26,126 bases of DNA from a virus. Every line of letters begins with the position of its first letter. Positions within the stretch are counted from its first letter, which is position 1. The translations under genes and the position numbers were made by a program. The notes below the pieces were generated by a model that had not been told where the DNA came from, searched no databases, and worked only from the letters and a program-made list of their open reading frames with translations. Positions 7,295 to 18,279 of this stretch are shown here, piece by piece. The stretch spans positions 1 to 26,126 of IMG/VR virus record IMGVR_UViG_3300025872_000270; one strand, written 5' to 3'.

Positions 7295-7309
7295 CTCTGT
7301 TCTCCTTGT

Positions 7310-7355
7310 CCGTTTCGCCCTTTGGGCTCATCAGCACCGGCCTACCGGTGGACGG
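7310..7355 (-). ncRNA. Hammerhead ribozyme A (type III)
   Basis: Read on the minus strand: CCGU-C, stem I CACCGG-UAGG-CCGGUG, core CUGAUGA, stem II GCCC-AAA-GGGC, core GAAA, then ACGG. Stem III is CCGU pairing with ACGG and is the open stem, making this type III. All core bases are present. Predicted cleavage is after the C of GUC, between 7351 and 7350. The released downstream RNA would begin with the stem I hairpin and carry AAGGAGAACAGAG-AUG a few bases after stem III. It sits between the 88 aa and 127 aa genes. Confidence 0.92.
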
Positions 7356-7356
7356 T

Positions 7357-7374
7357 GGCCCGGTTTCCCGGGCC
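7357..7374 (-). terminator. GAAA-tetraloop hairpin upstream of ribozyme A
   Basis: GGCCCGG-GAAA-CCGGGCC on the minus strand, 2 nt before the ribozyme. There is no T-tract, so it is unlikely to terminate strongly. After ribozyme cleavage it would be the 3' terminal hairpin of the upstream RNA, a plausible exonuclease block. An identical hairpin precedes ribozyme B. Confidence 0.6.
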
Positions 7375-7379
7375 TTGGT

Positions 7380-7646
7380 TTAGGCTATCCCGTCTTGCTC
7401 GAGCATAGCCTCGGCGTCATACCGATGGATCTCGGAGGATACCATCTTCCCTTCTCCGGTAACGATCGTCATCCATGCGGACCGTCGACCATCGGGGTAG
7501 TCGCTCAATCGGAGCCGGATCAACCAATCTTGGAACGACCGGTTCTCGAACGTCACTTGCCGGCAGGTCCGGTAGAGCTTGTCGCTGACTTCCACCCACG
7601 GATCGAGCTTCGGCGTCGGACCAGTGATCGTGCTAACAGTTTGCAT
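7380..7646 (-). CDS. Hypothetical protein, 88 aa
   Basis: First gene of the P3 operon. The ATG at 7646 follows GAGGAGAACTAAG; the longer reading to 7763 crosses the promoter and is rejected. The protein is beta-rich (TFENRSFQDWLIRLRLSDYPDGRRSAWMTIVTGEGKMV). No family recognised. It ends 5 nt before the hairpin that precedes ribozyme A, so cleavage would leave it as a one-gene RNA with 5' and 3' hairpins. Confidence 0.75.
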   Translation of the reverse strand: MQTVSTITGPTPKLDPWVEVSDKLYRTCRQVTFENRSFQDWLIRLRLSDYPDGRRSAWMTIVTGEGKMVSSEIHRYDAEAMLEQDGIA

Positions 7647-7659
7647 CTTAGTTCTCCTC

Positions 7660-7709
7660 GTCGGTTCTCCCGACACGAATATATTACGGCACGGTACTAG
7701 GCATTGCCA
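7660..7709 (-). promoter_or_regulatory. Promoter P3 with 5' leader hairpin
   Basis: -35 TGGCAA (7709-7704), 17 nt spacer containing CCGTGCC, -10 TAATAT (7686-7681), then ATTCGTGTC. The expected 5' end carries hairpin GTCGG-GAGAA-CCGAC (7674-7660), followed directly by the GAGGAGAAC ribosome site. It matches P1 and P2 closely. Confidence 0.7.
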
Positions 7710-7719
7710 GAATCGCGCC

Positions 7720-7751
7720 AAAAAAACCCGGGCTTTTTTTAGCCCGGGTTT
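7720..7751 (-). terminator. Intrinsic terminator
   Basis: Stem AAACCCGGGCT / AGCCCGGGTTT (11 bp) with a six-A loop, followed by a continuous T-tract on the minus strand. It is the strongest terminator in the window. It ends the P2 operon just before P3. Confidence 0.88.
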
Positions 7752-7791
7752 GGTCGACGGCAACTTAGCTTGCTAGGTTTGGACGATTGCG

Positions 7792-8019
7792 TCAGTAGCC
7801 CCATCCGCGCTCTGCGCGTACAGCGCAAGAGTCGCATTGGTATCCACGCGCCCTGTCTGCGGGCGTCAAGACGTCTTCGGCCCCGCAGGTGGGGCAGGGC
7901 AAGTTGCGCGGGTTGTCGGGAGTCTCTGCCCGAAGCGCGGAGCCCTCATTGGCAAAGTAGGTGCCATCACCGGCATCAAAGTCGTCCCAGTCACAATTGT
8001 AGTCGTAGTCGTCGTACAT
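7792..8019 (-). CDS. Small acidic zinc-ribbon protein, 75 aa
   Basis: ATG at 8019 after AAGGAGAACAGAG, directly downstream of ribozyme B. The N-terminal third is very acidic and aromatic (MYDDYDYNCDWDDFDAGDG). The C-terminal half holds a zinc ribbon, C-P-T-C-G at about residue 43 and C-D-S-C at about residue 62. Last gene of the P2 operon; a strong terminator follows. An acidic tail on a zinc ribbon could mimic nucleic acid or bind a polymerase, but that is only a guess from composition. Confidence 0.75.
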   Translation of the reverse strand: MYDDYDYNCDWDDFDAGDGTYFANEGSALRAETPDNPRNLPCPTCGAEDVLTPADRARGYQCDSCAVRAERGWGY

Positions 8020-8034
8020 CTCTGTTCTCCTTCT

Positions 8035-8083
8035 CCGTTTCGGCCTCTAGGCCTCATCAGCGTCGGGCACTACCGACGGACGG
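8035..8083 (-). ncRNA. Hammerhead ribozyme B (type III)
   Basis: Minus strand: CCGU-C, stem I CGUCGG-UAGUGC-CCGACG, CUGAUGA, stem II GGCC-UAGA-GGCC, GAAA, ACGG. Stem III is CCGU with ACGG. Predicted cleavage lies after GUC, between 8079 and 8078. Stem I differs from ribozyme A at both strands while pairing is kept. The downstream ribosome site is AAGGAGAAC. Confidence 0.92.
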
Positions 8084-8084
8084 T

Positions 8085-8102
8085 GGCCCGGTTTCCCGGG
8101 CC
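8085..8102 (-). terminator. GAAA-tetraloop hairpin upstream of ribozyme B
   Basis: GGCCCGG-GAAA-CCGGGCC on the minus strand, identical to the hairpin before ribozyme A, between the stop of the 96 aa gene and the ribozyme. No T-tract. Confidence 0.6.
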
Positions 8103-8108
8103 TTGCGT

Positions 8109-8399
8109 TCAGCTCGGGAACGGATGCTCAGCGGCCTTGAGCATCTCCCAGACGTTGACCGGCACGCTGAAGTCGTTCCGTTCTTCTTCGTCAATCAGTC
8201 CGGCCTCGAGCGCTCCGCTGATCACACCGGCGCATTGCTCCTTGGTCCATCCAGTTATCCGGCGGATATCCTTGGCCGTGAACCACGAGAAGTTGTCGCC
8301 AATCATCGTGTCATAGCTGGTCGGGCAGTTCCCTGCGTCGATCAGGACGGTCTCGAGCAACATAATCTGCATCGCGGTCAATTCGGTGTAAGCTTTCAT
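8109..8399 (-). CDS. Small winged-helix-like protein, 96 aa
   Basis: ATG at 8399 follows AAGGAGAACCGAGAG, downstream of ribozyme C. Residues about 40-72 (WFTAKDIRRITGWTKEQCAGVI and SGALEAGLIDEEE) have the pattern of a helix-turn-helix followed by a winged segment, as in small regulators. No named family recognised. Middle gene of the P2 operon, flanked on both sides by ribozymes, so it should end up as a one-gene RNA. Confidence 0.7.
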   Translation of the reverse strand: MKAYTELTAMQIMLLETVLIDAGNCPTSYDTMIGDNFSWFTAKDIRRITGWTKEQCAGVISGALEAGLIDEEERNDFSVPVNVWEMLKAAEHPFPS

Positions 8400-8416
8400 C
8401 TCTCGGTTCTCCTTGT

Positions 8417-8463
8417 CCGTTTCGGCCTCTAGGCCTCATCAGCACCGGCCTACCGGTGGACGG
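8417..8463 (-). ncRNA. Hammerhead ribozyme C (type III)
   Basis: Minus strand: CCGU-C, stem I CACCGG-UAGG-CCGGUG, CUGAUGA, stem II GGCC-UAGA-GGCC, GAAA, ACGG. It combines the stem I of ribozyme A with the stem II of ribozyme B. Predicted cleavage lies between 8459 and 8458. The core is complete. Confidence 0.92.
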
Positions 8464-8464
8464 T

Positions 8465-8483
8465 GGCCCCGATGGTCGGGGCC
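8465..8483 (-). terminator. GC-rich hairpin upstream of ribozyme C
   Basis: GGCCCCGA-CCA-TCGGGGCC on the minus strand, 8 bp. It occupies the same position as the tetraloop hairpins before A, B and D but has a different sequence and loop, so the structure rather than the sequence is kept. No T-tract. Confidence 0.6.
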
Positions 8484-8490
8484 TATTGAT

Positions 8491-8691
8491 TTATTTCAGG
8501 TAACCTTGTCGCTTCAATTGAAGCTTCAAGACGTCAACCGTTTTCGCGTCAACGCAATGACCACACGCGCCGTCCTCGCACGGCTTCCAAACTCCGTTTT
8601 CGTCGCAGTGCTGTTCATGCTGTTGGAGTTCTTCCTCCCACTCCTTGGGGATTTCGAGAACGATGGGCTTGAGGGTCGTCGTGGTGTTCAT
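8491..8691 (-). CDS. Hypothetical protein with Cys/His motifs, 66 aa
   Basis: First gene of the P2 operon. ATG at 8691 follows TAGGAGAAACCC. The sequence has several Cys and His residues (HEQHCDENGVWKPCEDGACG, then HCVD), which could form a small metal site. No family recognised. It ends 7 nt before the hairpin that precedes ribozyme C. Confidence 0.72.
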   Translation of the reverse strand: MNTTTTLKPIVLEIPKEWEEELQQHEQHCDENGVWKPCEDGACGHCVDAKTVDVLKLQLKRQGYLK

Positions 8692-8703
8692 GGGTTTCTC
8701 CTA

Positions 8704-8753
8704 GTCGATTGCATCGACACGGTTATATTAGGGCACGGTTACCGAGAGTGCCA
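8704..8753 (-). promoter_or_regulatory. Promoter P2 with 5' leader hairpin
   Basis: -35 TGGCAC (8753-8748), 17 nt spacer, -10 TAATAT (8730-8725), then AACCGTGTC as in P1. The 5' end of the RNA would fold as GTCGAT-GCA-ATCGAC (8718-8704), followed by the TAGGAGAAAC ribosome site. Confidence 0.7.
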
Positions 8754-8762
8754 GCATTTCTC

Positions 8763-8787
8763 AAAAAAATGTTGCTGTTTTTTCAGC
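8763..8787 (-). terminator. Weak intrinsic terminator
   Basis: A short stem GCTG / CAGC with a six-A loop, then AACA and seven T on the minus strand. It overlaps the stop codon of the 93 aa zinc-finger gene. The stem is only 4-5 bp, so termination of the long early/packaging operon here may be partial. Confidence 0.45.
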
Positions 8788-9064
8788 CGAACGTTGCACT
8801 CCACCAAACCTCGAAGCAATCGGACCCACAGAACCAGCGCCTGCGGTGGTACGGCCTCGATCCCTCCGCCGCCCAGTCCAAGACCCGGTACAAGCCGGAG
8901 CCGCAGGAGCGGCATCGCTGGTGCGTGTCTTCGATGGCGGCTAGCCGAGCAACGTCCTCAACCGCTGTCTCGGCTTGACGCTTCAGCCGATCGGCTGAGT
9001 TGCACCGCAAGCAAACGCGCCCGTGGTACCGACGATTGACCCCGCATCGATCGCACAGGCTCAT
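8783..9064 (-). CDS. Double zinc-ribbon protein, 93 aa
   Basis: ATG at 9064 overlaps the terminase stop as ATGA; TAGGAG lies just upstream. It has two Cys pairs at the N-terminus (C-D-R-C-G at residue 4, C-L-R-C-N at residue 18) and a second set, C-R-S-C-G at about residue 51 and C-G-S-D-C at about residue 78. This looks like two zinc ribbons joined by a helix. Position after the large terminase suggests a DNA-binding or packaging accessory protein; an HNH nuclease is often found here in other phages, but I see no HNH catalytic histidines. Confidence 0.72.
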   Translation of the reverse strand: MSLCDRCGVNRRYHGRVCLRCNSADRLKRQAETAVEDVARLAAIEDTHQRCRSCGSGLYRVLDWAAEGSRPYHRRRWFCGSDCFEVWWSATFG

Positions 9065-10227
9065 ACGGCTCCTAGCGAGCGCCGCATTGAGCTGACCGCG
9101 AAAGCGTAAGCTGTAGCATCGACCGCGTCATCGTGGTGCCCAACCGGGAATGATAGGAGCTCGTCCTCGTACCAGCTCGGCAAGCCGGGAGCGTGTACGA
9201 CGAGTCCTTGCTCGTACCGGACTTCCATCGATGCGAACCGGGTCACTTTGTCTTTATCCGGACGTATACCGCGCACTGGGAGCCGCGTGGTCCGGAGAAG
9301 CTCCTGCACCACGGCTACCTGATACTGGACTTGTTCGATACCGATCAGCGTCGGTTGCCACTTCGCGGCCATGTCGCGAATGAACCTTAGAACGCCGTCG
9401 AAAGGTGCACGAATCCGCGCGGCGTCGCGGACGTAGATGGTGCCATCCTCGCCACGGGACATGACGACGGCCGCGGTCCAGTCGGCCTCGGACTTGGTCG
9501 ATATGGCAAGGTCGACGCCCATTGTACAGGTCAAGCCGTCCGGCACTTCGCCGTGCCGCAACCATTCACGGCGTATGCGAGCACCAGCGGCATCGACGAA
9601 TTCAGCTAAGTACTCCTGCCGGTACGCTATCGACGGAAGGCTCGCCGCGGCGGCGGCTACCTCGTTGGGGTCGATCCAAGGATTCGCTGTAGTCGGCATC
9701 TGCCAGCGCGCCCAGAGCGGGTCGTCTGCGGCAAGCTCATGTAGCACGGAGAAGTAGTTGCGTCCCTTGGGCGTGCTTAGGAAAAACGCGTCTCCGCGGT
9801 AGTCCGTCAGGGTCGGCCTGATCGCCTCAGTCCATGCTTGTTCGAGGTGCCGCGCCATTGCGGCTTCGTCGATGATGACGCGCTTGTACTTCCGCCCACG
9901 GGCAACGGTTGCGGGGTCGTCTAGCGTCCAGTAGTCGATCGCTGCTCCGTTGAGCAACTCGATGCGCCGGCTGTGTATCGACCTTGCTATGACAGGCTGG
10001 TAGATGCGCTTGTGGTCGTTGTACGCCTCCTCGAGGAGCCGGTAGGTCGGGGCAAACCAACCAACGGGCTTGCACTCGCGGAGCGTCGGATCGGCTATAA
10101 GGTTGCCTCCAAGGGTCGTCTTGCCGAAACGTCTGCCGCACGCAAGGACGTTGTACCGTCGTGCCTCTGCGAGTATCTGGCGCTGGGCCGCGTGTGGACG
10201 CGGTAGTACGAGCCGGACGTCAGGCAT
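9061..10227 (-). CDS. terL: Terminase large subunit
   Basis: Protein of 388 aa, ATPase motor plus nuclease that packages DNA into the prohead through the portal. Walker A is CGRRFGKTT (residues 30-38); Walker B is KRVIIDEAAM with D120-E121; FLSTPKG (about residue 150) is the coupling motif. The RNase H-like nuclease half has its acidic residues in GVDLAI (about residue 239), GIEQVQ (about residue 302) and HHDDAVDATAYA near the C-terminus. The length is at the short end for the family but all motifs are present. The ATG at 10227 overlaps the small terminase gene by 8 nt. Confidence 0.95.
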   Translation of the reverse strand: MPDVRLVLPRPHAAQRQILAEARRYNVLACGRRFGKTTLGGNLIADPTLRECKPVGWFAPTYRLLEEAYNDHKRIYQPVIARSIHSRRIELLNGAAIDYWTLDDPATVARGRKYKRVIIDEAAMARHLEQAWTEAIRPTLTDYRGDAFFLSTPKGRNYFSVLHELAADDPLWARWQMPTTANPWIDPNEVAAAAASLPSIAYRQEYLAEFVDAAGARIRREWLRHGEVPDGLTCTMGVDLAISTKSEADWTAAVVMSRGEDGTIYVRDAARIRAPFDGVLRFIRDMAAKWQPTLIGIEQVQYQVAVVQELLRTTRLPVRGIRPDKDKVTRFASMEVRYEQGLVVHAPGLPSWYEDELLSFPVGHHDDAVDATAYAFAVSSMRRSLGAV

Positions 10228-10585
10228 CCGATTCCGGCCACGGGTCTTGAGCGTACTCGACTATCACGCGGACAGCCCCGCCACCGTCTCCGGTTGTCTC
10301 GGTACGCTGAGCCCAGTCCGCCTTCCGCTTGCGCTCAAGCCACCACGCCGCGGCCGTCCATGTGGTCGACGCGGCCTTCTGGATGATGGCTACGTTGCGT
10401 ATCTCGGCATCGGCCTCCGCTTTTTCTACGGCCTCCCGAAAATCGGCATAACGCTCGATCCAGAGCGCCAAAGTAGACTCGGATATTCCGGCGTAAGTGC
10501 AACTGGCGCGGCGCGTGTTTCCGGCCCTAAGAGCCTCGCACAGGCGCGATTCCCGCTCGGCGGTACGTTTAGTTGGCCTTGCCAT
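10220..10585 (-). CDS. terS: Terminase small subunit
   Basis: Protein of 121 aa. N-terminal helix-turn-helix (RAGNTRRASCTYAGISESTL and following W-I-E-R) of the type used by small terminases to bind the packaging site, then a helical oligomerisation core (about residues 45-90, VEKAEADAEIRNVAIIQKAA) and a loose acidic tail that would contact the large subunit. It directly precedes and overlaps the large terminase gene. It overlaps the end of the methyltransferase gene by 17 nt. Confidence 0.88.
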   Translation of the reverse strand: MARPTKRTAERESRLCEALRAGNTRRASCTYAGISESTLALWIERYADFREAVEKAEADAEIRNVAIIQKAASTTWTAAAWWLERKRKADWAQRTETTGDGGGAVRVIVEYAQDPWPESDA

Positions 10586-11639
10586 CTTGGGCCTTCCTTG
10601 AGTAGATTGCGTCCAACCACTGCTTTGCGACTTCGCTTGCTATCCTTGCCGTCATGACCGGCGGGACTGACATGCCTATAACGTACTTTGGTTCGGCATC
10701 GAGGAAGTTGTAGTCGAGCGGGAAGGAGCCACAAAGCATAAGCTCCCGAATACTCAGGAACCGCCTACTTTGAGCGCTTATTAGGTTGCTTCCATTTGTT
10801 GCGCATATTGTGTTGCAGACTGCTGAGTCAGCAACAATGCAAGACGTGAAACCTATATTTTTGCCTTTTGTTCGCATGTTTATGTCGGCGTAGTCCTTGT
10901 CGGTACTTTTCATTTTTGCTAGCATTTGTATGTCGTGATTGCTAGGCTTTTTATATTGACCGTCTCCTTCCCTGCGAACTTCCCCAAAATAAACCGGCTT
11001 GCTATTAAACTCAAGGGCAATGTCATTGACCCCAAGTGTTTTTAGCCGGGCTAAGAAAAAGACCCTCTGCCTCTTCTGTGGAACGCCCATAGATGCGGAA
11101 TTTAGAAGAAACACTTGGCAAGCGTATCCTGCCTTGCTAAATTCTTGGCATATCTCTTTCACATAACCTTTTGCATTCCCTTTCAGCATGCCGGAAACAT
11201 TTTCAGCTATCACAACCTTTGGTTTTAGTTTGGACGCTAGCGCAATGAACTCAAAAAACAGGTCGTCAAGACGCTGTTTTACTTGGCCTTCCCTAAACTT
11301 TTTCTCAATCCCCCATCCTTTCTCCCTACTTCCGGCCGTACTAAATGATGAGCACGGAGGTGACCCGTCAAGTACGTCAAGGTTGTATAGAGCTTGAGGG
11401 ATATCCGTCCGGTTTCTAAAGTCACGTATATCTTCAACGTACATCAAGCTAGGATGATGGTTTTCTTGGTATAGGCGTGCCATCTGTGGGTCTATCTCGC
11501 AACATCCGAGCACGTCGTAACCTGCGAGCTTGTAGCCCATAGTCGATCCGCCACCACAGGCGAAAGTGCTGAACACCTTGTAGCCATTCTTGGTTTCCGA
11601 GTATCCATCAACCAAGTTCCACTCATACGGGTAGCTCAT
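10569..11639 (-). CDS. DNA cytosine-5 methyltransferase
   Basis: Protein of 356 aa with the ordered motifs of C5-cytosine methyltransferases: motif I F-S-T-F-A-C-G-G-G-S (residues 23-32), motif IV DGSPPCSSFS with nucleophile Cys96, motif VI A-E-N-V-S-G, motif VIII QKRQRVFFLAR, and motif X YVIGMSVPPVMTARIASEV. The target recognition region lies at about residues 215-300. It transfers methyl groups from S-adenosylmethionine to cytosine in a specific site, probably to shield phage DNA from host restriction; no cognate endonuclease is adjacent. Base composition is markedly AT-richer than its neighbours (10801-10860 has 26 G+C in 60), a sign of recent acquisition. ATGA overlap with the ParB-like gene. 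Confidence 0.93.
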   Translation of the reverse strand: MSYPYEWNLVDGYSETKNGYKVFSTFACGGGSTMGYKLAGYDVLGCCEIDPQMARLYQENHHPSLMYVEDIRDFRNRTDIPQALYNLDVLDGSPPCSSFSTAGSREKGWGIEKKFREGQVKQRLDDLFFEFIALASKLKPKVVIAENVSGMLKGNAKGYVKEICQEFSKAGYACQVFLLNSASMGVPQKRQRVFFLARLKTLGVNDIALEFNSKPVYFGEVRREGDGQYKKPSNHDIQMLAKMKSTDKDYADINMRTKGKNIGFTSCIVADSAVCNTICATNGSNLISAQSRRFLSIRELMLCGSFPLDYNFLDAEPKYVIGMSVPPVMTARIASEVAKQWLDAIYSRKAQDGKAN

Positions 11640-12154
11640 TGCTCGAACTCAAATCCACACCGCGGGCACTTGAGCGCGTCTTCGCCAAGCAAGTCTTCAG
11701 CGTTCACTTCCTTGTTGACAGGTGAATAATCGTTGTTCATTCCAGACAGCCGTCCAATCAGGTCATCAAGGTCGTCGCCATCGAATCCAGTACCAAGTAG
11801 ACCGGAAGGTGTCGTAGACAGTTCCGATAGCAACTCGGCAAGTTGGGCCTCGTTGTCAATGCCGAGACGCGTTGTCCGGTTATCGGCTACCAGTATCCGG
11901 ACTTCTTCGTCCTTATCCACATCGACCCAAGCAACCGGAACCTTCTCGAACCCTAGCTGTTTTGCGACCGCATAACGATGGTTTCCTGCTAGGATATGCC
12001 CGGTCCGTTTGTTGGCGACAATCACGCCGTAAAAGCCGTTGGTCTTTACCGATTCCTGTATCGCCCCGAAGTCTCCCTGATTGACATTCCGCGGGTGAAT
12101 CTTGAGCGCACCGAGCGGCGCGTCCTCTATCGCATGGTTGATGTTTTTTGGCAT
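11636..12154 (-). CDS. ParB/sulfiredoxin-fold protein with C-terminal zinc ribbon
   Basis: Protein of 172 aa. Residues about 10-100 carry the ParB N-terminal pattern: LKIHPRNVNQGDFGAIQESV, then GHILAGNHRYAVAKQLG with the G-x-H-R nucleotide-binding motif, then VPVAWVD and A-D-N-R-T-T. A C-terminal C-P-R-C-G forms half of a metal site. Such phage ParB-like proteins are often next to methyltransferases. The ATG at 12154 has GGAG 8 nt upstream; a GTG at 12160 overlapping the previous stop is possible. A nuclease, NTPase or DNA-binding role cannot be chosen from sequence. Confidence 0.85.
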   Translation of the reverse strand: MPKNINHAIEDAPLGALKIHPRNVNQGDFGAIQESVKTNGFYGVIVANKRTGHILAGNHRYAVAKQLGFEKVPVAWVDVDKDEEVRILVADNRTTRLGIDNEAQLAELLSELSTTPSGLLGTGFDGDDLDDLIGRLSGMNNDYSPVNKEVNAEDLLGEDALKCPRCGFEFEQ

Positions 12155-12156
12155 GA

Positions 12157-12828
12157 TCACAACTCCAAGGCCATTGGTAATGGCGCGGCTTTCTTACGGC
12201 TAAAGTTCTCGAGGAGCGCAAACGATTCCGTCGAGAAGGCGGCTAGACTATCGTCTCGGTCTATTGGCAGTCCGAGGCACTTGGCCTCGGACTCGGAGTA
12301 TACAACCCGGGCGAACTTGAGACCGTACTGCTCGATTAGCGCATCGTGCTTGCCACCGTATGACGCCGTTATATTGACGTTCGCTGGTATATGATTCTGG
12401 CGCGCAACCCAAAACGGGAGGCTCTTTGTGAAAAGCCAGAAACGCACTCCCGGGTTCCGCCGGCACACGGTCATCCAGCCGTCGAAATAAGCCTGCGAGA
12501 ACATATCCCCGGCGGCGTGAATCCGAACGAGCTTTGCATCCTGAGGCAGAAGGGAACATACAACGTCCGCTACTTCCTGCTCGTCCAGCCCGAACACAGC
12601 GTCCCTGTTCGCCCACGACTTATCCCGTACCGCCGGGAACCTCTCCGTTACCGCCGAGTAGCAACGGAATTCGTTCTCCTTGCCAAGCTTGACTCGACCG
12701 GTTGTGCGGTCCGCGTATGCAAGGCACTTGAGCGCTCCCGGGCAGGTATATCCGGACGGCAGGTTCCACGTCCAGATATCCCGCGAGAACAGGTATTTGT
12801 TAGCGCGAGCGAACCCGGGCTTTGCCAT
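12157..12828 (-). CDS. Gp88-like phage protein
   Basis: Protein of 223 aa with the pattern I associate with the mycobacteriophage gene product 88 family: an N-terminal W-N-L-P-S-G-x-T-C-P-G-A-x-x-C-L-A-Y-A segment (Cys at about residues 29 and 35), C-Y-S-A at about 57, and RIHAAGDMFSQAYFDGW in the middle, followed by P-G-V-R-F-W-L-F-T-K-S. The biochemical role of the family is unsettled. Start ATG at 12828 with CTGGAG 7 nt upstream. It sits in a ParB-like / methyltransferase cassette, suggesting a DNA-modification or host-takeover role, which is inference only. Confidence 0.75.
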   Translation of the reverse strand: MAKPGFARANKYLFSRDIWTWNLPSGYTCPGALKCLAYADRTTGRVKLGKENEFRCYSAVTERFPAVRDKSWANRDAVFGLDEQEVADVVCSLLPQDAKLVRIHAAGDMFSQAYFDGWMTVCRRNPGVRFWLFTKSLPFWVARQNHIPANVNITASYGGKHDALIEQYGLKFARVVYSESEAKCLGLPIDRDDSLAAFSTESFALLENFSRKKAAPLPMALEL

Positions 12829-13375
12829 TCGTCGACTCCAGTCGTAGTTCCAACGCGTGTGCGATCCATCGCCAGCTGTCTGGGCAGGTACGTGCGATCT
12901 CCGCTATTCCGTCTCGTACAAGCGCCACCGGGACAGCACCGGCGGGTATCGATATCGGAGGCCTATCCGATCGCGTTGTCAGCCGTCGCCCTATCCATGG
13001 ACGGTTTTGGCAAGCGTCCCTATGTGGTTCCTGAGCCAGTAGCAACACGACCGCGTTTTCTCCGTGGACGAGACCAAGGTTTCGATATTGCCACCGTATC
13101 CACGCATCCCGAGAGGAGTAGTCGAGTCGGCTCCGCTTAAGGTCGTCCGACATGATTTCGGCGGTATACCTGCGATGATACAGGCTCCGGTACTTAGCGA
13201 TACGTGGGTAGACTGCCCGCTTGTATTCGCGTCCCTGTCTCCGCTTGCAATGTCGGCAAACGTGGTCGGTTGTCCAGCCTTTTCTGGTGCTTCGCCTGAC
13301 AACGCGGAAAACGTCGATAGGATAGACGGTGCCGCATGAGCGGCACCGTCTTGGCGACGTCTGGTCAACCGGCAC
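12800..13375 (-). CDS. Zinc-ribbon protein, 191 aa
   Basis: GTG start at 13375, overlapping the end of the preceding gene by 11 nt; the 3' end overlaps the Gp88-like gene by 29 nt. N-terminal zinc ribbon C-R-S-C-G (residue 11) and C-R-H-C-K-R-R-Q (about residue 40) followed by a basic, Tyr-rich helix (YKRAVYPRIAKYRSLYHRRY). This layout is common in phage proteins related to HNH or VSR-like endonucleases, but I see no convincing catalytic motif. The C-terminal half resembles nothing I know. The start is the weakest part of the call. Confidence 0.65.
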   Translation of the reverse strand: MPVDQTSPRRCRSCGTVYPIDVFRVVRRSTRKGWTTDHVCRHCKRRQGREYKRAVYPRIAKYRSLYHRRYTAEIMSDDLKRSRLDYSSRDAWIRWQYRNLGLVHGENAVVLLLAQEPHRDACQNRPWIGRRLTTRSDRPPISIPAGAVPVALVRDGIAEIARTCPDSWRWIAHALELRLESTNGKARVRSR

Positions 13376-14093
13376 TTGAGGCCTTGACCCCGTTTCGCCA
13401 GTGCCGGAGCATCATCGCCGCGGCAGATTGACTCCCGGTCGCACGCTCCTTGATCTCGGCGCGCCGGGCTTTAAGTTTTGCGTTCTCAGCCCGTAGTCCA
13501 ACCTTCCGTTCCCTGTCTCGGTTGATGGAGTCAATAGTGGCGTGAGCTTTGCCTTCCGACAGATGCAGGAGGCAGTTCATGAGCACTTTGTCGTAGCCGT
13601 CGTCTCCGAGCGACGGGAACCGATTGACCCACGACGGAATGGTATCCGGCATGGTTGCCTCGGGAAGCCCAAGGAGCCCGTCAGAAGCCTTGGCGGCTAG
13701 TTCCTTGTATTGATCGGGCGCCTCGATGATTCGGCGTTGTTCCGCGGTTTCTCCGGTCAGCTCGGTCGACGTTTCGATCAAACCCAAGCGAGCGGCTTCC
13801 TCGTCAACTTCGTGAAACTTCGGGCGGAACTTTCGATCCCTGATCCAGAGCAAAAGGTTTCCCGCTCCGTTGACCCAGTAGAGAGGCGATTCCCCGGGAA
13901 CGTACCCGGGTTCGTAATGCGCGATCCTGAGCCCAGTCCGTCCCATCCGCTTAAGGCGGAACATGAACGTCTTGACCATGTCCATGTCGAGCTCGTCGAG
14001 CGGAGCTCCGGGGTGCCGGGCAAGCTCCGCCACCAAACGCTGGCGGTACTCGTCGTATGCCGCCTTGATCCACACGATTTCTTCTCTGTTCAC
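13365..14093 (-). CDS. Hypothetical protein with C-terminal coiled coil, 242 aa
   Basis: GTG start at 14093 overlaps the initiator stop as GTGA. The protein is helical at the N-terminus (IVWIKAAYDEYRQRLVAELA), has an aromatic-rich middle (HYEPGYVPGESPLYWVNGAG) and ends in a charged coiled-coil-like stretch (about residues 190-222). Directly downstream of a replication-initiator-like gene, it occupies the place of a helicase loader in many phages. No family recognised, so that role is only positional. Confidence 0.68.
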   Translation of the reverse strand: MNREEIVWIKAAYDEYRQRLVAELARHPGAPLDELDMDMVKTFMFRLKRMGRTGLRIAHYEPGYVPGESPLYWVNGAGNLLLWIRDRKFRPKFHEVDEEAARLGLIETSTELTGETAEQRRIIEAPDQYKELAAKASDGLLGLPEATMPDTIPSWVNRFPSLGDDGYDKVLMNCLLHLSEGKAHATIDSINRDRERKVGLRAENAKLKARRAEIKERATGSQSAAAMMLRHWRNGVKASSAG

Positions 14094-14677
14094 TTCCCGA
14101 TCCTCCTGTTCGCCCTAGTGTACTCCGCAATCCGGCGCTCCTCCTCCCGGTCCGCGTCTGCGAAATACCGGGTCGAGTACTCGGACGCTTCGCGTGCTCG
14201 ACGCTCGGGAGCTGACTCGGCGCGTTGCCCTTGGACACGCAGAGTATATCTACTACCAAGGGTATCTCTTACTAGTGGTTCTACTGATGGTTCCCCTGAT
14301 GGTTCTGTGTACCGTTTTTGGTACTGTTTCGAGTCCGTTTTTGGTACAGCTTGGAGTCCGTTTTCGGTACTGTTCCGTTTTCGGTACTGCTCCGTTTTTG
14401 GGACCGTTTCCTCAGGTATCCCTAGTATCCAAACCTTGATTCCTCCGGTGGCTCCGACTCGACGTCCCGTGTCCTGTATTAGCCCGGATTCGGCAAGGTC
14501 GCGGAGCACCGAAAGCACCGTCTTGCGGTTAAGCTCCGTGTCCCGGGATAGTGTTTCAATCGATGGATATGCCTCGCCTGATTCGCCCGCGTAATTAGCG
14601 AGCGCCATCAAAACGGACTTCCGGGAGGACGACCCCGTGGTCGTCCTCCTTGCCCAGTTAATCGCTTGGATGCTCAT
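14090..14677 (-). CDS. Helix-turn-helix replication initiator-like protein
   Basis: Protein of 195 aa. Residues about 18-85 form a winged helix of the HTH_36 / phage O-protein N-terminal type: KSVLMALANYAGESGEAYPS, IETLSRDTELNRKTVLSVLR, DLAESGLIQDTG and a hydrophobic wing strand. The middle (about residues 90-135) is low-complexity and encoded by two arrays of DNA repeats; the C-terminal part is a charged helix. The arrangement recalls lambda O, where origin iterons lie inside the initiator gene. It follows the RecT-like gene by 3 nt, starting at ATG 14677. DNA binding is likely; the replication role is inferred from family and context. Confidence 0.75.
   Translation of the reverse strand: MSIQAINWARRTTTGSSSRKSVLMALANYAGESGEAYPSIETLSRDTELNRKTVLSVLRDLAESGLIQDTGRRVGATGGIKVWILGIPEETVPKTEQYRKRNSTENGLQAVPKTDSKQYQKRYTEPSGEPSVEPLVRDTLGSRYTLRVQGQRAESAPERRAREASEYSTRYFADADREEERRIAEYTRANRRIGK
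14271..14306. repeat. Three tandem 12-bp repeats
   Basis: Plus strand: ACTAGTGGTTCT, ACTGATGGTTCC, CCTGATGGTTCT, three imperfect 12-mers in a row. They encode an EPSG/EPSV-like peptide repeat in the initiator. They adjoin the iteron-like array and may be part of the same origin or a variable linker. Confidence 0.6.
14311..14406. repeat. Five iteron-like repeats, candidate origin
   Basis: The plus strand has five copies of a CCGTTTTTGGTAC-like unit, starting at 14312, 14335, 14358, 14375 and 14392, thus at spacings of 23, 23, 17 and 17. Copies 3 and 4 read CCGTTTTCGGTAC; copy 5 ends GGGAC. The unit has a partly palindromic core (GTACC...GGTAC). Being inside a DNA-binding initiator-like gene, this is a good candidate for origin iterons. 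Confidence 0.6.
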
Positions 14678-14680
14678 ACC

Positions 14681-15556
14681 TTAGTTTTCCGCGAAGGGAT
14701 CGACGATCTCCTCGTCCTCATCGGAACCCGCAACCTCGGCGTCTGATTCTTGGAGCATGATCTCTACCGCGGCGTACCAGCAAGCCGGGTCCTCGGAATC
14801 GAACGGCTTGTCGTCCAGAGCAAGAAGCGTCCGCGCCGCATCGACCATTCTGCTTTTGGACGGCTTGCCGGCATCCGTCGTAACGGACAACCCATTCTCG
14901 CTAGCAGCTACCGCGAAGTCCTGCATGGCAATCCTAAGCACACGGGCTTTTACCTTCAAGTCGCCTTCCTGTTCCTCGTCGTGATGCGGGCGCGGAGCCT
15001 CTATCGCAGGAATGGCATTTTGAGGCACTTCTACGGCCCGTACACTGGCGATAGGTGCCCTTTGGGATATCGGCTCCATATTGGACGCTTCCTCGGGCGT
15101 GTAGAGGCCATTTGTCGCACCCGGCAAAACGGACCGGACGCCTTCGCTAACGCATCGAGCGTGGAGCATCTGACGCGGGTACTGAGCCCAGACGTCTTTC
15201 CCGGTAAGTTTCGCGGCGCGGGCTTGCTCAATCGTCCAGCGGACCGTAACGGTACCACCAAGCGGATGCGAAAACGTGGCCTCGGCCGCGGTATCGTCCC
15301 TCTGAGCCCACTCGACCCGACCTCCAAGCCGGACGAATTCTCCGAGCATTGCATCCGCTCGCATAACCGGGCGTCCCTGCACAACGTGGTACCGCTCGAT
15401 GGCGGTCATAGGGTCGAGCCCTTTGCTCCGGCACAAAAGCATCATCGCGGCCGCGGCTTCGCGAGTCTTGAACATCGGAAATAGACCGCTCTTGACCACC
15501 ACGTCCGCCATTTGCATGACGTCCGCGACGGATGTCGTCGCCACCAGTTCGCTCAT
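14681..15556 (-). CDS. RecT-like single-strand annealing protein
   Basis: Protein of 291 aa. Residues about 1-180 match the RecT/Bet pattern: AAAAMMLLCRSKGLDPMTAI, then VVQGRPVMRADAML, a beta segment with VEWAQRD...GTVTVRWT, and QYPRQMLHARCVSEGVRSVL followed by GLYTPEE. The C-terminal part is acidic and unstructured, ending in DEDEEIVDPF. It anneals complementary single strands during phage recombination. No RecE/exonuclease is fused, but two PD-(D/E)XK-type nucleases lie just to the right. ATG at 15556 has GGAGAACAAAG; the longer reading to 15622 would cross the P4 promoter. First gene of the early operon. Confidence 0.85.
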   Translation of the reverse strand: MSELVATTSVADVMQMADVVVKSGLFPMFKTREAAAAMMLLCRSKGLDPMTAIERYHVVQGRPVMRADAMLGEFVRLGGRVEWAQRDDTAAEATFSHPLGGTVTVRWTIEQARAAKLTGKDVWAQYPRQMLHARCVSEGVRSVLPGATNGLYTPEEASNMEPISQRAPIASVRAVEVPQNAIPAIEAPRPHHDEEQEGDLKVKARVLRIAMQDFAVAASENGLSVTTDAGKPSKSRMVDAARTLLALDDKPFDSEDPACWYAAVEIMLQESDAEVAGSDEDEEIVDPFAEN

Positions 15557-15568
15557 CTTTGTTCTCCT

Positions 15569-15603
15569 ACCGATCGGATATCGGTGGTATAGTGTAACAC
15601 ATA
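15569..15603. promoter_or_regulatory. Divergent promoter/operator P4
   Basis: The 47 nt gap between recT (minus) and the ribbon-helix-helix gene (plus) holds overlapping signals. Minus: -10 TACACT (15596-15591), then hairpin ACCGAT-ATCCG-ATCGGT (15585-15569) and TAGGAGAAC. Plus: -10 TATAGT (15588-15593) only 10 nt before the ATG, giving a nearly leaderless RNA. TAGTGTAACACATA (15590-15603) overlaps both -10s and resembles the perfect inverted repeat in P5. No clear -35 was seen for either direction. Confidence 0.6.
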
Positions 15604-15780
15604 ATGGCCAGAAATAGTACACTTGACCGCGACCGGGAACAGCCCGTTTTTTCCGTTCGCCTCAGCCTCGACGAACGGGCAAAGCTTGATGAGGTACGGT
15701 CAGCTACCGGCAAGTCTCGCAACCAGATAATCGCGGAGGCACTGGTCCTCTACCGCCAGACTGTACTGGGCAAACCATGA
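15604..15780 (+). CDS. Ribbon-helix-helix regulator, 58 aa
   Basis: One of the few plus-strand genes. Sequence has a short beta strand V-F-S-V-R-L-S (residues about 15-21), helix LDERAKLDEVRSAT, the turn G-K-S-R and helix NQIIAEALVLYRQ, a standard MetJ/Arc or CopG-like ribbon-helix-helix. Such dimers bind short inverted repeats. It starts right beside the TAGTGTAACACA element and is divergent from the recT operon, the classical arrangement of an autoregulated repressor. There is no Shine-Dalgarno sequence before ATG 15604. The stop overlaps the next plus-strand ATG as ATGA. Confidence 0.85.
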   Translation: MARNSTLDRDREQPVFSVRLSLDERAKLDEVRSATGKSRNQIIAEALVLYRQTVLGKP

Positions 15781-16076
15781 GACGGTCGACACCGCGCTCG
15801 CGGATCGACGCATCCGAGTATGCCGATCGGATAATACTAATCGCCGAAGCAATAGCCACGGCCAACGGCTGGACGCGTAAACCGTTTCCGCTATTTCTCA
15901 AGCTGGTCACGGACGTTGCGGACTGCACTTGCGTCTCGGCCAAACCGCTCCTCGACATCAAGGATGGCGGCAAGCGAGTCCCTGACGCTCCGGACGATGA
16001 CAATGGAGCCCTCGGCCATCAGCACTTTCTGCTCTGGCCGAATCGCCCCGCCGGGCCGTTTGACCTCGAGCCCTAG
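15777..16076 (+). CDS. Doubtful ORF downstream of the regulator, 99 aa
   Basis: ATG 15777 overlaps the regulator stop as ATGA, which argues for translation. The first 38 residues (helical, RIDASEYADRIILIAEAIATA) look protein-like. The rest, from 15891 on, is antisense to the VRR-NUC gene and has the composition of a shadow frame. It may be a real short gene that runs on into a random tail, or not a gene at all. Confidence 0.3.
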   Translation: MRRSTPRSRIDASEYADRIILIAEAIATANGWTRKPFPLFLKLVTDVADCTCVSAKPLLDIKDGGKRVPDAPDDDNGALGHQHFLLWPNRPAGPFDLEP

Positions 16077-16283
16077 CCAGAGCGTCCCCCACGCTTTAGC
16101 CGTGATCATCAGGTCCGGAGCCCCGGGAGTGTTGCCCTGCCATCCGATGGCGGGCGTCCTAGCACCGCACTTGCGGCACGGAACCATTCGGCGGCTCCTG
16201 CCAATCTCTATGACGGTGTAGCCAAACATCCTCAGGATGTTGACAATCGACTGCTGTATTGCCGACTCAGGCTCGCTAGACAT
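15891..16283 (-). CDS. VRR-NUC domain nuclease
   Basis: Protein of 130 aa with the compact VRR-NUC fold of the PD-(D/E)XK superfamily: an N-terminal helix with E-S-A-I-Q-Q-S-I-V, the G-A-P-D-L-M-I motif (catalytic Asp), L-G-L-E-V-K-R-P (catalytic E-x-K) and a C-terminal helix. A C-R-K-C-G pair at about residue 36 may hold metal. Phage VRR-NUC proteins are thought to cut branched or junction DNA in recombination and packaging. Start chosen at ATG 16283, preceded by GGGGAACC; the open frame upstream to 16505 is antisense to another gene. It lies opposite to the surrounding plus-strand genes. Confidence 0.88.
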   Translation of the reverse strand: MSSEPESAIQQSIVNILRMFGYTVIEIGRSRRMVPCRKCGARTPAIGWQGNTPGAPDLMITAKAWGTLWLGLEVKRPGGAIRPEQKVLMAEGSIVIVRSVRDSLAAILDVEERFGRDASAVRNVRDQLEK

Positions 16284-16295
16284 TAGAGGTTCCCC

Positions 16296-16802
16296 ATGCA
16301 CAGACGGACAATGTATGAGGCCGATACCGACCGTGCCGTCCAGACAATCGTACAACGATTCCTCCAGTTCGAGTCTTCGGTCGCGATCCCGGGTTCCGTG
16401 GTATCCCAGACGCCTCCGCGGTCTCAGGTCGATTTCTGCTGGCACGTCGGGCCGCGGCTGATACACGTTGCGGAGCTCAAGCGGAGGAACTGCCGCCACG
16501 ACCACTGGCCAGACTATATGATTAGCCTGAGCAAGGTCGAAGCAGTTATGCAGTACGTGGAGCTAGGATGGATTCTCGTTCTCTACACGGACGGGCTATA
16601 TCGTATCCCTATCCGGCGCGGCATGAACGTGGAGCAACGGCACGGAGGCAGGACGACTCAGGTACGGGACCAATGGGACCAGCGGGGAGAACCGTGCGCC
16701 ATTTTCCCGATATCCAACCTTATGCCGTTTCGCGGCTGGTCGAAAGACTGGGAGGAAAAGATAGCCGAAGCAGTCGGCAAACACAAACGCCCTGCCGGGT
16801 AA
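16296..16802 (+). CDS. Putative PD-(D/E)XK nuclease, 168 aa
   Basis: Plus strand, divergent from VRR-NUC with only 12 nt between start codons; an in-frame ATG at 16311 is an alternative start. An N-terminal helix (ADTDRAVQTIVQRFLQFE) is followed by R-S-Q-V-D-F-C-W (candidate catalytic Asp) and H-V-A-E-L-K-R-R-N (candidate E-x-K), then an amphipathic helix and VMQYVELGWILVLYTDGLYRI, the usual beta-alpha order of restriction-fold nucleases. No named family recognised. With the VRR-NUC and RecT-like genes nearby it suggests a recombination cluster. Ribosome site is weak (AGAGG). Confidence 0.65.
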   Translation: MHRRTMYEADTDRAVQTIVQRFLQFESSVAIPGSVVSQTPPRSQVDFCWHVGPRLIHVAELKRRNCRHDHWPDYMISLSKVEAVMQYVELGWILVLYTDGLYRIPIRRGMNVEQRHGGRTTQVRDQWDQRGEPCAIFPISNLMPFRGWSKDWEEKIAEAVGKHKRPAG

Positions 16803-16814
16803 CCAGCAGGGCGT
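16787..16814. terminator. Hairpin at convergent gene ends
   Basis: A 9 bp stem ACGCCCTGC / GCAGGGCGT with a 10 nt loop overlaps the stop codon of the plus-strand nuclease and lies 19 nt past the end of the minus-strand 117 aa gene. On the minus strand it is followed by TTTGTGTTTG, so it most likely terminates the minus-strand P5 operon; on the plus strand there is no T-tract. Confidence 0.5.
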
Positions 16815-16832
16815 CGGGGTAGGAGAACCGAT

Positions 16833-17186
16833 CTATGCTACCGGTTCGACGTCTTGTTCCGCAAGGCGAACGGCGAACCAGATAAACCTAGCGTCGGCCT
16901 CAGAAGTCGAGGCGTAAGGATTCCGAACAATCCTCAAAAACGCCACCATCGCCCGGCTCGACACGTCCACCGGCAGGTTCGCCATGTCCCCTACCGTCAC
17001 GTTCGCGAGCACACGCTCGACGACGGACGGAATCATCGGCCCGATCTCGGGCTCGGGAGAATTCCCTTGCAATTTCTCGCTTCCATATGGCGTGAAATTC
17101 CGCTTCGTCCTCATCCGTCCAATCAGGCGGAGGAGCGCATCGCCTGTAGCGCTCGTAGCGTTGTGAAGCCGTATCCAAGCCGTCAT
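16833..17186 (-). CDS. Hypothetical protein, 117 aa (reading frame of 5' half uncertain)
   Basis: ATG at 17186 follows GGAGGAG and overlaps the previous stop as ATGA. The C-terminal half (IPSVVERVLANVTVGDMANLPVD and onward) looks like a genuine folded protein. The N-terminal half is less convincing, whereas the overlapping frame from a TTG at 17178 reads QRYERYRRCAPPPDWTDEDE then AEFHAIWKREIAREF, which looks more protein-like, before degrading into Arg/Gly-rich sequence. So this may be one gene broken by an indel, one with a +1 frameshift near 17060, or two overlapping genes. No family recognised. Confidence 0.55.
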   Translation of the reverse strand: MTAWIRLHNATSATGDALLRLIGRMRTKRNFTPYGSEKLQGNSPEPEIGPMIPSVVERVLANVTVGDMANLPVDVSSRAMVAFLRIVRNPYASTSEADARFIWFAVRLAEQDVEPVA

Positions 17187-17308
17187 AGTATCTCCTCCGT
17201 CTCGCGGTCGATCCGGTCTTGATACCGGCATACGACGTCGATCAACCAACCAAACAGCAGGACCATGCTGGCGCCCATGATGAGCGCCAGCACGACGACG
17301 ATGATCAT
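17183..17308 (-). CDS. Tiny single-span membrane protein, 41 aa
   Basis: ATG 17308 overlaps the previous stop as ATGA and is preceded by GGAGG at 8 nt. Residues 2-26 (IIVVVLALIMGASMVLLFGW then LIDVV) form one transmembrane helix; the remainder is a charged cytoplasmic tail (RYQDRIDRETEEIL). The size resembles small phage membrane proteins such as superinfection or lysis-helper proteins. It could serve as a holin-like partner of the endolysin, though it is in a different operon. Function unknown. Confidence 0.75.
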   Translation of the reverse strand: MIIVVVLALIMGASMVLLFGWLIDVVCRYQDRIDRETEEIL

Positions 17309-17739
17309 TGCGTGTACCTCCACGATGCGTAATAGTCGAGGTCGCGGTAATGGGACGGATCTGCGTTGGCGTAGTGCCGTGTCTCGGTCATTATGTCGGA
17401 GAATCCGAACAGCGTGTCCGTGCGGAACGGCCCGAGGATGAACATCGCATTTGGTTGGCCTTGTCGACCAAGATTCCACCACTCGTTGGTTTCGTCGTTG
17501 ACGTGCAAGGTGGTCTGGCGACCGTCGCGCTCGACGACGCATTCCTCCGTGTTTTCGATGTGGATGACCTTCCACAGACGGTTTCCATCTTCGCGGAGCT
17601 CGATCGCCATCGCGTTGAGCTCTGGGCGGACCCAGTAGCCGTAGGGCTGTGGAGGATGGATGATTGTCTTGGCTTCCCAATGCCGCTCCTCGTCCTCCTG
17701 CCAGCGGTAGTCCTCCATCAGATCGTCGAAGTCGGTCAT
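17305..17739 (-). CDS. Hypothetical protein, 144 aa
   Basis: ATG at 17739, preceded by GGGAGG; overlaps the stop of the upstream membrane protein gene by 4 nt. The N-terminus is very acidic (MTDFDDLMEDYRWQEDEERH). The rest is beta-rich with many W, Y and R (LNAMAIELREDGNRLWKVIH then IENTEECVVERDGR). No family recognised. Part of a tightly overlapping set with the 59, 41 and 117 aa genes; this compact coupling contrasts with the ribozyme-separated genes upstream. Confidence 0.72.
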   Translation of the reverse strand: MTDFDDLMEDYRWQEDEERHWEAKTIIHPPQPYGYWVRPELNAMAIELREDGNRLWKVIHIENTEECVVERDGRQTTLHVNDETNEWWNLGRQGQPNAMFILGPFRTDTLFGFSDIMTETRHYANADPSHYRDLDYYASWRYTQ

Positions 17740-17915
17740 TGGCTCATACCTCCCTCGGCGCGGATGATCGCGGCGCGTTGCTCGGCCTCGATGTCGCGCC
17801 GCGCCCAGAACCCGTCGGCGAACCACCAGCCCATCGCTACCACCAGAACTGCAATAGCAACCTTGACGATCGGGTGTTCGTCGTTCGGCCGTTGTATCAT
17901 GGTACGATTGCTCAT
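17736..17915 (-). CDS. Small membrane protein, 59 aa
   Basis: Start at ATG 17915 after GGAGGAGAACAGAG. Residues about 16-36 (I-V-K-V-A-I-A-V-L-V-V-A-M-G-W-W-F) make one transmembrane segment, followed by an amphipathic helix (ARRDIEAEQRAAIIRAEGG). It is too short to be included in a typical ORF list of 60 aa or more. Overlaps the next gene by 4 nt. Function unknown; one of two single-span membrane proteins in this operon. Confidence 0.72.
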   Translation of the reverse strand: MSNRTMIQRPNDEHPIVKVAIAVLVVAMGWWFADGFWARRDIEAEQRAAIIRAEGGMSQ

Positions 17916-17929
17916 CTCTGTTCTCCTCC

Positions 17930-17958
17930 AAGGCCTGCCGGGTATCCCGGCAGGCCTT
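17930..17958. terminator. Long hairpin without ribozyme
   Basis: A perfect palindrome: 13 bp arms AAGGCCTGCCGGG / CCCGGCAGGCCTT with a 3 nt loop, between the 82 aa gene and the ribosome site of the 59 aa gene. It takes the place that hairpin plus hammerhead has in other spacers, but no CUGAUGA/GAAA core is present. A T-rich tract follows only on the plus strand (TTCTTTCT), so it may be partly read as a plus-strand terminator or act as an RNA stability element. Confidence 0.6.
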
Positions 17959-17966
17959 CTTTCTAT

Positions 17967-18215
17967 CTATGCGTTCTTCCGGATGCGCTCGAGCGGCCCA
18001 ACCACTGCATCGCGTCCGTCGATTATATAGACTTCCATCATCGAGTAGACGTCGTTCGGGGATACCTCGGGGCTCGAGGCGATATTGATGATACGGAACC
18101 ACACTTCGTGGTCCTTGAATCCGTTCTCAATCGCATAGAGCGCGTCATCGATCAGCTCGCGGAGCTTGTCCGCGCCTTGGTTCGCGGCCGATATGGCCCA
18201 GTTCGTCGTCTTCAT
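17967..18215 (-). CDS. Hypothetical protein, 82 aa
   Basis: ATG at 18215 after GGAGAACAGAG, immediately downstream of ribozyme D. Helical N-terminus (GADKLRELIDDALYAIENGF), then a short beta-like central part (DHEVWFRIINIASS). No family recognised. After cleavage by ribozyme D it would be the first gene on the released RNA. Confidence 0.72.
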   Translation of the reverse strand: MKTTNWAISAANQGADKLRELIDDALYAIENGFKDHEVWFRIINIASSPEVSPNDVYSMMEVYIIDGRDAVVGPLERIRKNA

Positions 18216-18227
18216 CTCTGTTCTCCT

Positions 18228-18279
18228 CCGGTTTCGGCCTCGCTAGGCCTCATCAGTACGGCTCGTTGCCGTAGACCGG
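18228..18279 (-). ncRNA. Hammerhead ribozyme D (type III)
   Basis: Minus strand: CCGGU-C, stem I UACGGC-AACGA-GCCGUA, CUGAUGA, stem II GGCCU-AGCG-AGGCC, GAAA, ACCGG. Stem III is CCGGU with ACCGG, one pair longer than in A-C. Predicted cleavage is after GUC, between 18274 and 18273. All three stems differ from the copies 10 kb away yet pair perfectly, which is strong covariation. The ribosome site GGAGGAGAAC overlaps the edge of stem III, so the folded ribozyme might also partly mask it. Confidence 0.93.

Follow-up and report, generated by a model that had tools for sequence, protein, structure and literature searches.

What do hammerhead ribozymes (HHRs) do between the small genes of a phage? 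In the review literature, the function of hammerheads in phages and bacteria counts as an open question (PMC6155905). Perreault et al. (2011) found that clustered prophage HHRs flank single genes or short blocks and proposed that long phage transcripts are processed into single-gene mRNAs; a triple HHR array of A. tumefaciens cleaved both in vitro and in E. coli (PMC3088659). In haloviruses HF1/HF2, a start codon follows the HHphage ribozyme after 13 nt, and an mRNA 5' end maps no more than 3 nt from its cleavage site (PMC3088659). We analysed a 26,126-nt stretch of viral DNA (IMG/VR record IMGVR_UViG_3300025872_000270, positions 1 to 26,126; hereafter the window), whose minus (coding) strand carries four type III HHRs (Table 1). 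Our results suggest that the spacers holding them, each built of a GC hairpin, a type III HHR and a Shine-Dalgarno (SD) sequence, are probably end-forming elements of mRNA processing.

Table 1 Features of the window around the four hammerhead ribozymes
Feature	Position	Strand	Detail	Evidence
HHR1, type III	7310..7355	-	Predicted cut 7351/7350 (GUC/C); between genes 7380-7646 and 6911-7294	CM 48.6 bits, E 1.3e-13
GC hairpin GGCCCGGGAAACCGGGCC, GAAA loop	7357..7374	-	1 nt 5' of HHR1; no U-tract on coding strand	Sequence, MFE fold
HHR2, type III	8035..8083	-	Predicted cut 8079/8078	CM 63.8 bits, E 1.6e-18; RF00008 E 1.3e-5
GC hairpin adjoining HHR2	8085..8102	-		Sequence, fold
HHR3, type III	8417..8463	-	Predicted cut 8459/8458	CM 53.6 bits, E 3.2e-15
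GC hairpin GGCCCCGACCATCGGGGCC	8465..8483	-	Adjoins HHR3	Sequence, fold
HHR4, type III	18228..18279	-	Predicted cut 18274/18273	CM 43.8 bits, E 4.9e-12
GC hairpin CCCGGGAAACCGGG	18280..18293	-	Flush against HHR4 stem III	Sequence, fold
Small gene, 66 aa	8491..8691	-	First of unit A, upstream of HHR3	Pfam: no match
Small gene, 96 aa	8109..8399	-	Between HHR3 and HHR2	Pfam: weak helix-turn-helix-like matches only
Small gene, 75 aa, zinc-ribbon-like	7792..8019	-	Downstream of HHR2, last of unit A	Weak Pfam zinc-ribbon/Lar matches, under cutoffs
Terminator-like hairpin and T-run	7720..7751	-	Closes unit A	Sequence
Small gene, 88 aa	7380..7646	-	First of unit B, upstream of HHR1	
Gene, 127 aa	6911..7294	-	Downstream of HHR1	
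Small gene, 54 aa	18300..18464	-	Upstream of HHR4	
Small gene, 82 aa	17967..18215	-	Downstream of HHR4	
Promoter-like -10 (TAATAT), leader stem-loop 6 nt after, then SD	8687..8730	-	Unit A start	
Promoter-like -10, leader stem-loop	7642..7686	-	Unit B start	
Promoter-like -10 (TACACT), leader stem-loop	18680..18723	-	Start of HHR4 unit	

The hammerhead identity of the four copies is near certain. A CTGATGA-N4-30-GAAA pattern matched the window five times (0.25 expected in shuffles), and four of these matches are the HHR copies; a descriptor of all stems gave no match in 0.76 Mb of reversed sequence and none in 3.6 Mb. A covariance model (CM) built from 23 HHRs of other phage lineages only detected exactly the four copies (43.8 to 63.8 bits, E 1.6e-18 to 4.9e-12), with the next match in the window at E 0.51. 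Pattern, descriptor, model and alignment thus support the earlier note, in which four type III hammerheads with GUC cleavage sites and covarying stems had been placed here on the coding strand. All copies contain the conserved core CUGANGA ... GAAA and a UH cleavage site, the triplet being GUC. Loops close stems I and II and stem III is open, so two stems are closed and not three, as had been claimed. Stems I, II and III differ between the window copies with pairing kept. In the alignment of the 23 non-window sequences, whose rows were picked with a descriptor that requires pairing, 12 of 16 pairs changed on both sides, 100% of cells paired, and the covariation score was 0.653 against 0.165 in shuffles. 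A tertiary contact between loop I and loop II seems plausible from the loop sequences, UAGG/UAGUGC/AACGA and AAA/UAGA/AGCG. The ViennaRNA minimum of HHR2 and HHR3 differs from the complete hammerhead fold.

Against Rfam model RF00008 (Hammerhead_3), the four copies scored 40.1, 38.7, 33.6 and 31.8 bits (E 1.3e-5 to 3e-3), and none reached the gathering score of 48.5. The earlier note had named a below-threshold score for all copies as grounds for refutation; the scores indeed fall below it, but the cutoff does not discriminate, because it also excludes type III HHRs at 14 further phage loci. The gathering score is a curation cutoff, not a structural feature. In the loci tested, Rfam cutoffs miss phage ribozymes of this class.

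The spacers share one order of parts: stop codon, GC hairpin lacking a U-tract, type III HHR, SD and start codon, with the hairpin immediately 5' of all four copies and the SD immediately 3'. All four HHRs are co-oriented on one strand and lie between genes, and their description as dividers of co-transcribed small genes is upheld. They are spread over three predicted transcription units, where two operons had been proposed, with promoter-like sites near 8730, 7686 and 18723; HHR3 and HHR2 sit between three genes of a single unit (unit A). At 11 of 11 promoter-like sites in the lineage, a stem-loop follows 5-6 nt after the -10 and is itself followed by an SD; the scan demanded a stem-loop 3-11 nt downstream, and the tight offset alone is informative. 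These sites were defined by the recurring -10/stem-loop/SD pattern, and a scan for the sigma-70 consensus found nothing above chance. The terminator-like hairpin of unit A has a T-run; the HHR hairpins are T-less. The earlier note was silent on the SD and on the 5' hairpin, the most informative part.

Hairpins were counted beside dereplicated phage and bacterial HHRs (99 type III, 162 type I); the HHR pattern scans left the upstream flank unspecified. A hairpin ended 0-3 nt before stem III in 48 of the 99 type III HHRs (6.3 expected), 36 of them at exactly 0 nt, compared with 3 of the 162 type I HHRs (5.6 expected; type III versus type I, Fisher p 6e-21). The type III excess disappeared when 10-50 nt of flank were trimmed (6-8/99) and survived stricter hairpin rules. 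A separate viral scan gave the same result (8/23 versus 0.8). Flank GC was 0.58 for type III and 0.48 for type I, a difference for which shuffles correct and matching does not. Very coarse clustering of HHR cores weakened the contrast (8.0 of 25 type III clusters, 1.0 of 38 type I). Both types co-occur on only five contigs (hairpin at 1/5 type III and 0/10 type I), so no strong within-genome comparison is available. The abutting hairpin is not essential, since roughly one in two type III copies elsewhere lacks it. In type I HHRs, the closed stem III carries a GNRA or UNCG loop in 72 of 165 cases (stem II, GNRA in 12 of 165); this stem III is the end of the upstream product. The cut of type III lies close to the 5' edge of the ribozyme and that of type I close to the 3' edge, so that with either type the upstream mRNA would end in a hairpin. 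The fold, the part order and the asymmetry between the two types are established by computation, and a hairpin right at the cutting end suggests what the cut is for.

Hammerhead cleavage leaves a 5'-hydroxyl and a 2',3'-cyclic phosphate. On the nascent transcript, the HHR would fold and cleave itself behind GUC, close to its 5' edge. The upstream message would be left with the hairpin, a short tail and a 2',3'-cyclic phosphate, resembling an end formed by a terminator; the downstream message would begin with a 5'-hydroxyl and stem I paired from the first nucleotide, followed by the SD, and would mimic the stem-loop leaders of the predicted primary transcripts of this phage. A two- or three-gene transcript would thus be divided into mRNAs of one gene each, with new ends that look like native, protected ones. 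Cleavage by the window copies in the cell is very likely, judging from their intact core and the published activity of an array, and we infer that the new mRNA ends are protected.

The hairpin could instead be a weak or host-specific transcription terminator, with the HHR merely trimming or insulating read-through message. Similar GC-rich hairpins with a T-run do close units in the window (near 660, 1420 and 7740), and the junction at 17930-17958 has a hairpin and an SD without an HHR. However, the U-tract is missing: among the 48 type III hairpins only 3 show five or more T among the 8 nt that follow, which sets the group apart from ordinary intrinsic terminators, and none of the four window hairpins is a GC hairpin followed by a U-tract or is listed as a terminator on the coding strand. 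Stopping at the hairpin would moreover leave most transcripts without the HHR, and a terminator does not predict the absence of hairpins beside type I HHRs. We consider this explanation unlikely.

HHR-bearing loci numbered 233, of which 168 hold a single copy, 65 hold 2-6 copies and 17 hold four or more; all copies were on the same strand in 65/65 multi-copy loci. Four copies as a regular divider, called unusual in the earlier note, therefore have company here and a precedent in Perreault et al. (2011). A survey of 80 terminase relatives found these HHRs in L004, L005 and L006 only, so they are not core-genome features. BLAST of the HHR spacer against named phages gave no match, and terminase and capsid searches against them gave distant matches only. 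Relatives of gene 6911-7294 in L005, L006, L089/L135 and L114/L132 each have an HHR directly upstream, and a different ORF stands in the place of gene 7380-7646 in L005, whose HHR may be weakened by a C.A pair beside the core. When the window is compared with L005, or L102 with L120, near-identity extends over the promoter-leader and over the HHR with its downstream gene, and the ORF between them is replaced; in the second pair the hairpin sequence changed and its pairing was preserved. It is the upstream genes that are exchanged, and the downstream gene keeps its HHR. The 144 downstream genes tested had no common function (51 PHROG families, each with at most 3 members; few anti-restriction matches), and their small size (median 83 aa) was the only clear trend.

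This linkage to the downstream gene would also suit a 5'-UTR switch, in which access to the SD would depend on cleavage, or on how salt or a ligand controls it, and processing upstream would take second place. The SD begins a few nt from stem III, type III HHRs end a median of 18 nt before the start codon, and salt-dependent control was proposed for the halovirus HHR (Perreault et al., PMC3088659). Yet the SD lies outside stem III in every window copy, the small loops show no conserved ligand-binding extension, and the abutting 5' hairpin is left unexplained, which makes a switch distinctly improbable as the main role. The ORF replacement between near-identical flanks, and the conserved downstream genes beside differing upstream ones, could likewise mean that the hairpin-HHR-SD block is kept mainly as a DNA boundary for gene exchange by homologous recombination, with incidental ribozyme activity. 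Such an anchor would preserve sequence rather than pairing and be indifferent to HHR type or orientation, whereas the L102/L120 hairpin differs yet pairs and HHR stems covary across lineages; boundary exchange is also compatible with an RNA function. We regard it as very unlikely that the block is mainly a DNA boundary. It is extremely improbable that tandem HHRs free single-gene RNAs for closure into circular mRNAs by a host RtcB-type ligase: one gene does lie between the directly oriented HHR3 and HHR2, and matching 5'-hydroxyl and 2',3'-cyclic phosphate ends would result, but no spliced or circular products turned up when Perreault et al. looked for them (PMC3088659), and most loci have one copy.

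If the spacers form mRNA ends, the hairpin asymmetry offers a specific, testable answer on the HHR role, namely that cleavage makes defined hairpin-ended messages, and the hairpin-HHR-SD element is a natural design to split a polycistronic message. More tentatively, phage type III HHRs might constitute an extended class in which a hairpin stacked on stem III, the ribozyme and an SD form a self-contained unit rebuilding both mRNA ends at a gene junction; type I would obtain the same upstream 3' end through its own stem III, so that HHR type predicts flanking architecture. Phages would then be using ribozymes as movable internal ends for swapping small accessory genes without new promoters or terminators.

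That HHRs occur in several copies between the genes of a phage is no novelty; here, and in about half of the related phage copies, a hairpin directly adjoins the cutting end. The prophage arrays (Perreault et al. 2011, Fig. 3; PMC3088659) likewise have several co-oriented HHRs flanking small genes, whereas in the window each of the four belongs to type III and has a hairpin against its 5' side. A term search of that article returned no terminator and no such hairpin, a result that covers the terms searched in this one article. HF1/HF2 HHphage differs in belonging to an archaeal virus, in its variant core and in having been described at a single gene. With RF00008 the window copies have the permutation, core, GUC site and three helices in common, but at 32-40 bits they lie below 48.5, and their stems and loops are phage-HHR-like. 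Bacterial and phage mRNAs carry 5'-stabilising stem-loops, as in the ompA leader, and REP-type 3' hairpins. The messages proposed here would likewise begin with a paired segment ahead of the SD and carry a GC hairpin close to the 3' end, but these ends would come from ribozyme cleavage rather than from initiation, termination or RNase trimming.

On the minus strand of this 26,126-base IMG/VR virus record lie tailed-phage genes (terminase, portal, head protease and major head protein), and its hammerhead motif count far exceeded chance expectation; with a stem-aware descriptor, the reversed sequence gave no matches. A covariance model trained on 23 hammerheads, all from other lineages, recovered exactly four copies (E 1.6e-18 to 4.9e-12; next match 0.51), confirming the four type III hammerheads that an earlier note had placed here. 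Their stems covary in an alignment whose rows were picked with a pairing descriptor. All four copies fell below the gathering score of the Rfam hammerhead model RF00008 (E 1.3e-5 to 3e-3), the threshold proposed in that note, but this check is uninformative because 14 other loci, each with clear type III hammerheads, also reach no Rfam gathering score (L126, L098, L137, L150, L180, L140, L102, L114, L120, L089, L173, L221, L217 and L168). Rfam-based annotation overlooks the hammerheads of these phage-hammerhead loci. Four copies dividing co-transcribed genes, which the note had regarded as unusual, are unexceptional, since 65 of the 233 collected loci are multi-copy, always on a single strand, and 17 carry four or more. 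Viral contigs L153, L343, L222, L224, L314 and L334 pack five or six copies, all oriented alike and most of them type I, into a few kb.

On the coding strand, each spacer runs from the stop codon through a GC hairpin (for example GGCCCGGGAAACCGGGCC) to the stem III 5' strand with the GUC cleavage site, closed stem I, CUGAUGA, closed stem II, GAAA, the stem III 3' strand, the Shine-Dalgarno sequence (SD) AGGAGAA and the start codon. HHR3 and HHR2 separate the three genes of one putative unit, and no hammerhead was found at the core head/packaging gene junctions of the window. A GC hairpin directly before an SD, with no hammerhead, occurs at the gene junction at 17930-17958 and similarly in loci L006 and L007.

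Hammerheads, putative transcription units and exchanged segments
Feature	Location	Strand	Remark
HHR1, type III	7310-7355	coding (minus)	
HHR2, type III	8035-8083	coding (minus)	
HHR3, type III	8417-8463	coding (minus)	
HHR4, type III	18228-18279	coding (minus)	
Promoter-like -10 hexamers	8730, 7686, 18723, 15596, 1336	minus	TAATAT or TACACT
Unit with HHR3 and HHR2	promoter-like site ~8730 to T-tailed hairpin 7720-7751	minus	
Second unit	promoter-like site ~7686		HHR1 between its first two genes
Third unit	promoter-like site ~18723		contains HHR4
Whole-ORF replacement	window 7250-7730 vs L005 10430-10895		conserved promoter-leader to conserved hammerhead and downstream gene
Whole-ORF replacement	L102 4780-5330 vs L120 4280-4885		conserved promoter-leader to conserved hammerhead and downstream gene

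Core patterns blind to the upstream flank were run against viral contigs and bacterial genomes, and a hit was retained only where its stems close. Results showed that a GC hairpin ends 0-3 nt before stem III in 48 of 99 dereplicated type III hammerheads (6.3 expected from dinucleotide shuffles), at exactly 0 nt in 36 of these 48, whereas type I had 3/162 (5.6 expected; Fisher p 6e-21). The excess survived stricter hairpin rules, vanished when the flank was trimmed by 10-50 nt, was absent downstream, and was repeated in a separate viral scan (8/23 type III, 0.8 expected). When cores were clustered, the contrast was 33.3/72 type III versus 1.1/102 type I clusters, falling to 8.0/25 versus 1.0/38 at the coarsest clustering. 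Only 3/48 hairpins had a T-rich tail. At 11-20 nt upstream, type I hammerheads had slightly more hairpins than expected (23 versus 12.1).

This pattern of hairpin and type points to mRNA end formation. Type III cleavage would fall close to the ribozyme's 5' edge, so upstream RNA would retain only the stem III 5' strand, with the abutting hairpin as its 3' terminal structure. Type I cleavage would fall close to the 3' edge, so upstream RNA would keep the folded ribozyme and end in stem III, whose loop is GNRA or UNCG in 72/165 (stem II loop GNRA in 12/165). In both types alike, the upstream message would end with a stable hairpin and short tail, bearing a 2',3'-cyclic phosphate by hammerhead chemistry. 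Cleavage in the cell probably occurs, given strong precedent, and general knowledge of RNA decay suggests that the new ends may be protective or stabilising. Type I hammerheads also adjoin tRNA genes, in L268 (Microbacterium, inside a 25-tRNA array), L182 (6031-6090, 7 nt after a tRNA) and L212 (a 424-kb viral contig; 626-712, 12 nt after a tRNA). These positions suggest that ribozymes trim tRNA arrays.

At all 11 putative promoters found in this phage lineage, a stem-loop stands 5-6 nt downstream, followed by an SD; the scan demanded a stem-loop at 3-11 nt, and only the tight offset is informative. At the five window sites the stem-loop is short, variable in sequence and constant in presence, and the SD is AGGAGAA. 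A primary transcript is therefore predicted to open with a stem-loop that starts at about the first base. The downstream cleavage product would begin with stem I and thus resemble it.

Across relatives, the hammerhead and its downstream gene remain together, and the gene on the upstream side varies. The terminase relative L005 retains HHR1 and the downstream gene behind another ORF; the genes surrounding HHR2 and HHR3 are missing from it. Between L102 and L120, promoter-leader, hammerhead and downstream gene are nearly identical, the intervening ORF differs, and the hairpins differ in sequence with pairing kept. Such ORF swaps suggest that small genes are traded while the regulatory boundaries on either side stay fixed. 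The genes that follow hammerheads are short, with a median of 83 aa; most are orphans, and a few belong to anti-restriction families. The L005 copy at 10782-10827 has a C.A mismatch at 1.1-2.1, adjoining the core, and is possibly slowed or dying.

The abutting hairpin, restricted to type III, is a candidate new element of uncertain priority; neither it nor its restriction to type III was found in the literature examined. In a review, the role of prokaryotic hammerheads is considered an open question (PMC6155905). Clustered hammerheads flanking phage genes, with a likely processing role, have been known since 2011, when cleavage in E. coli was shown (PMC3088659).
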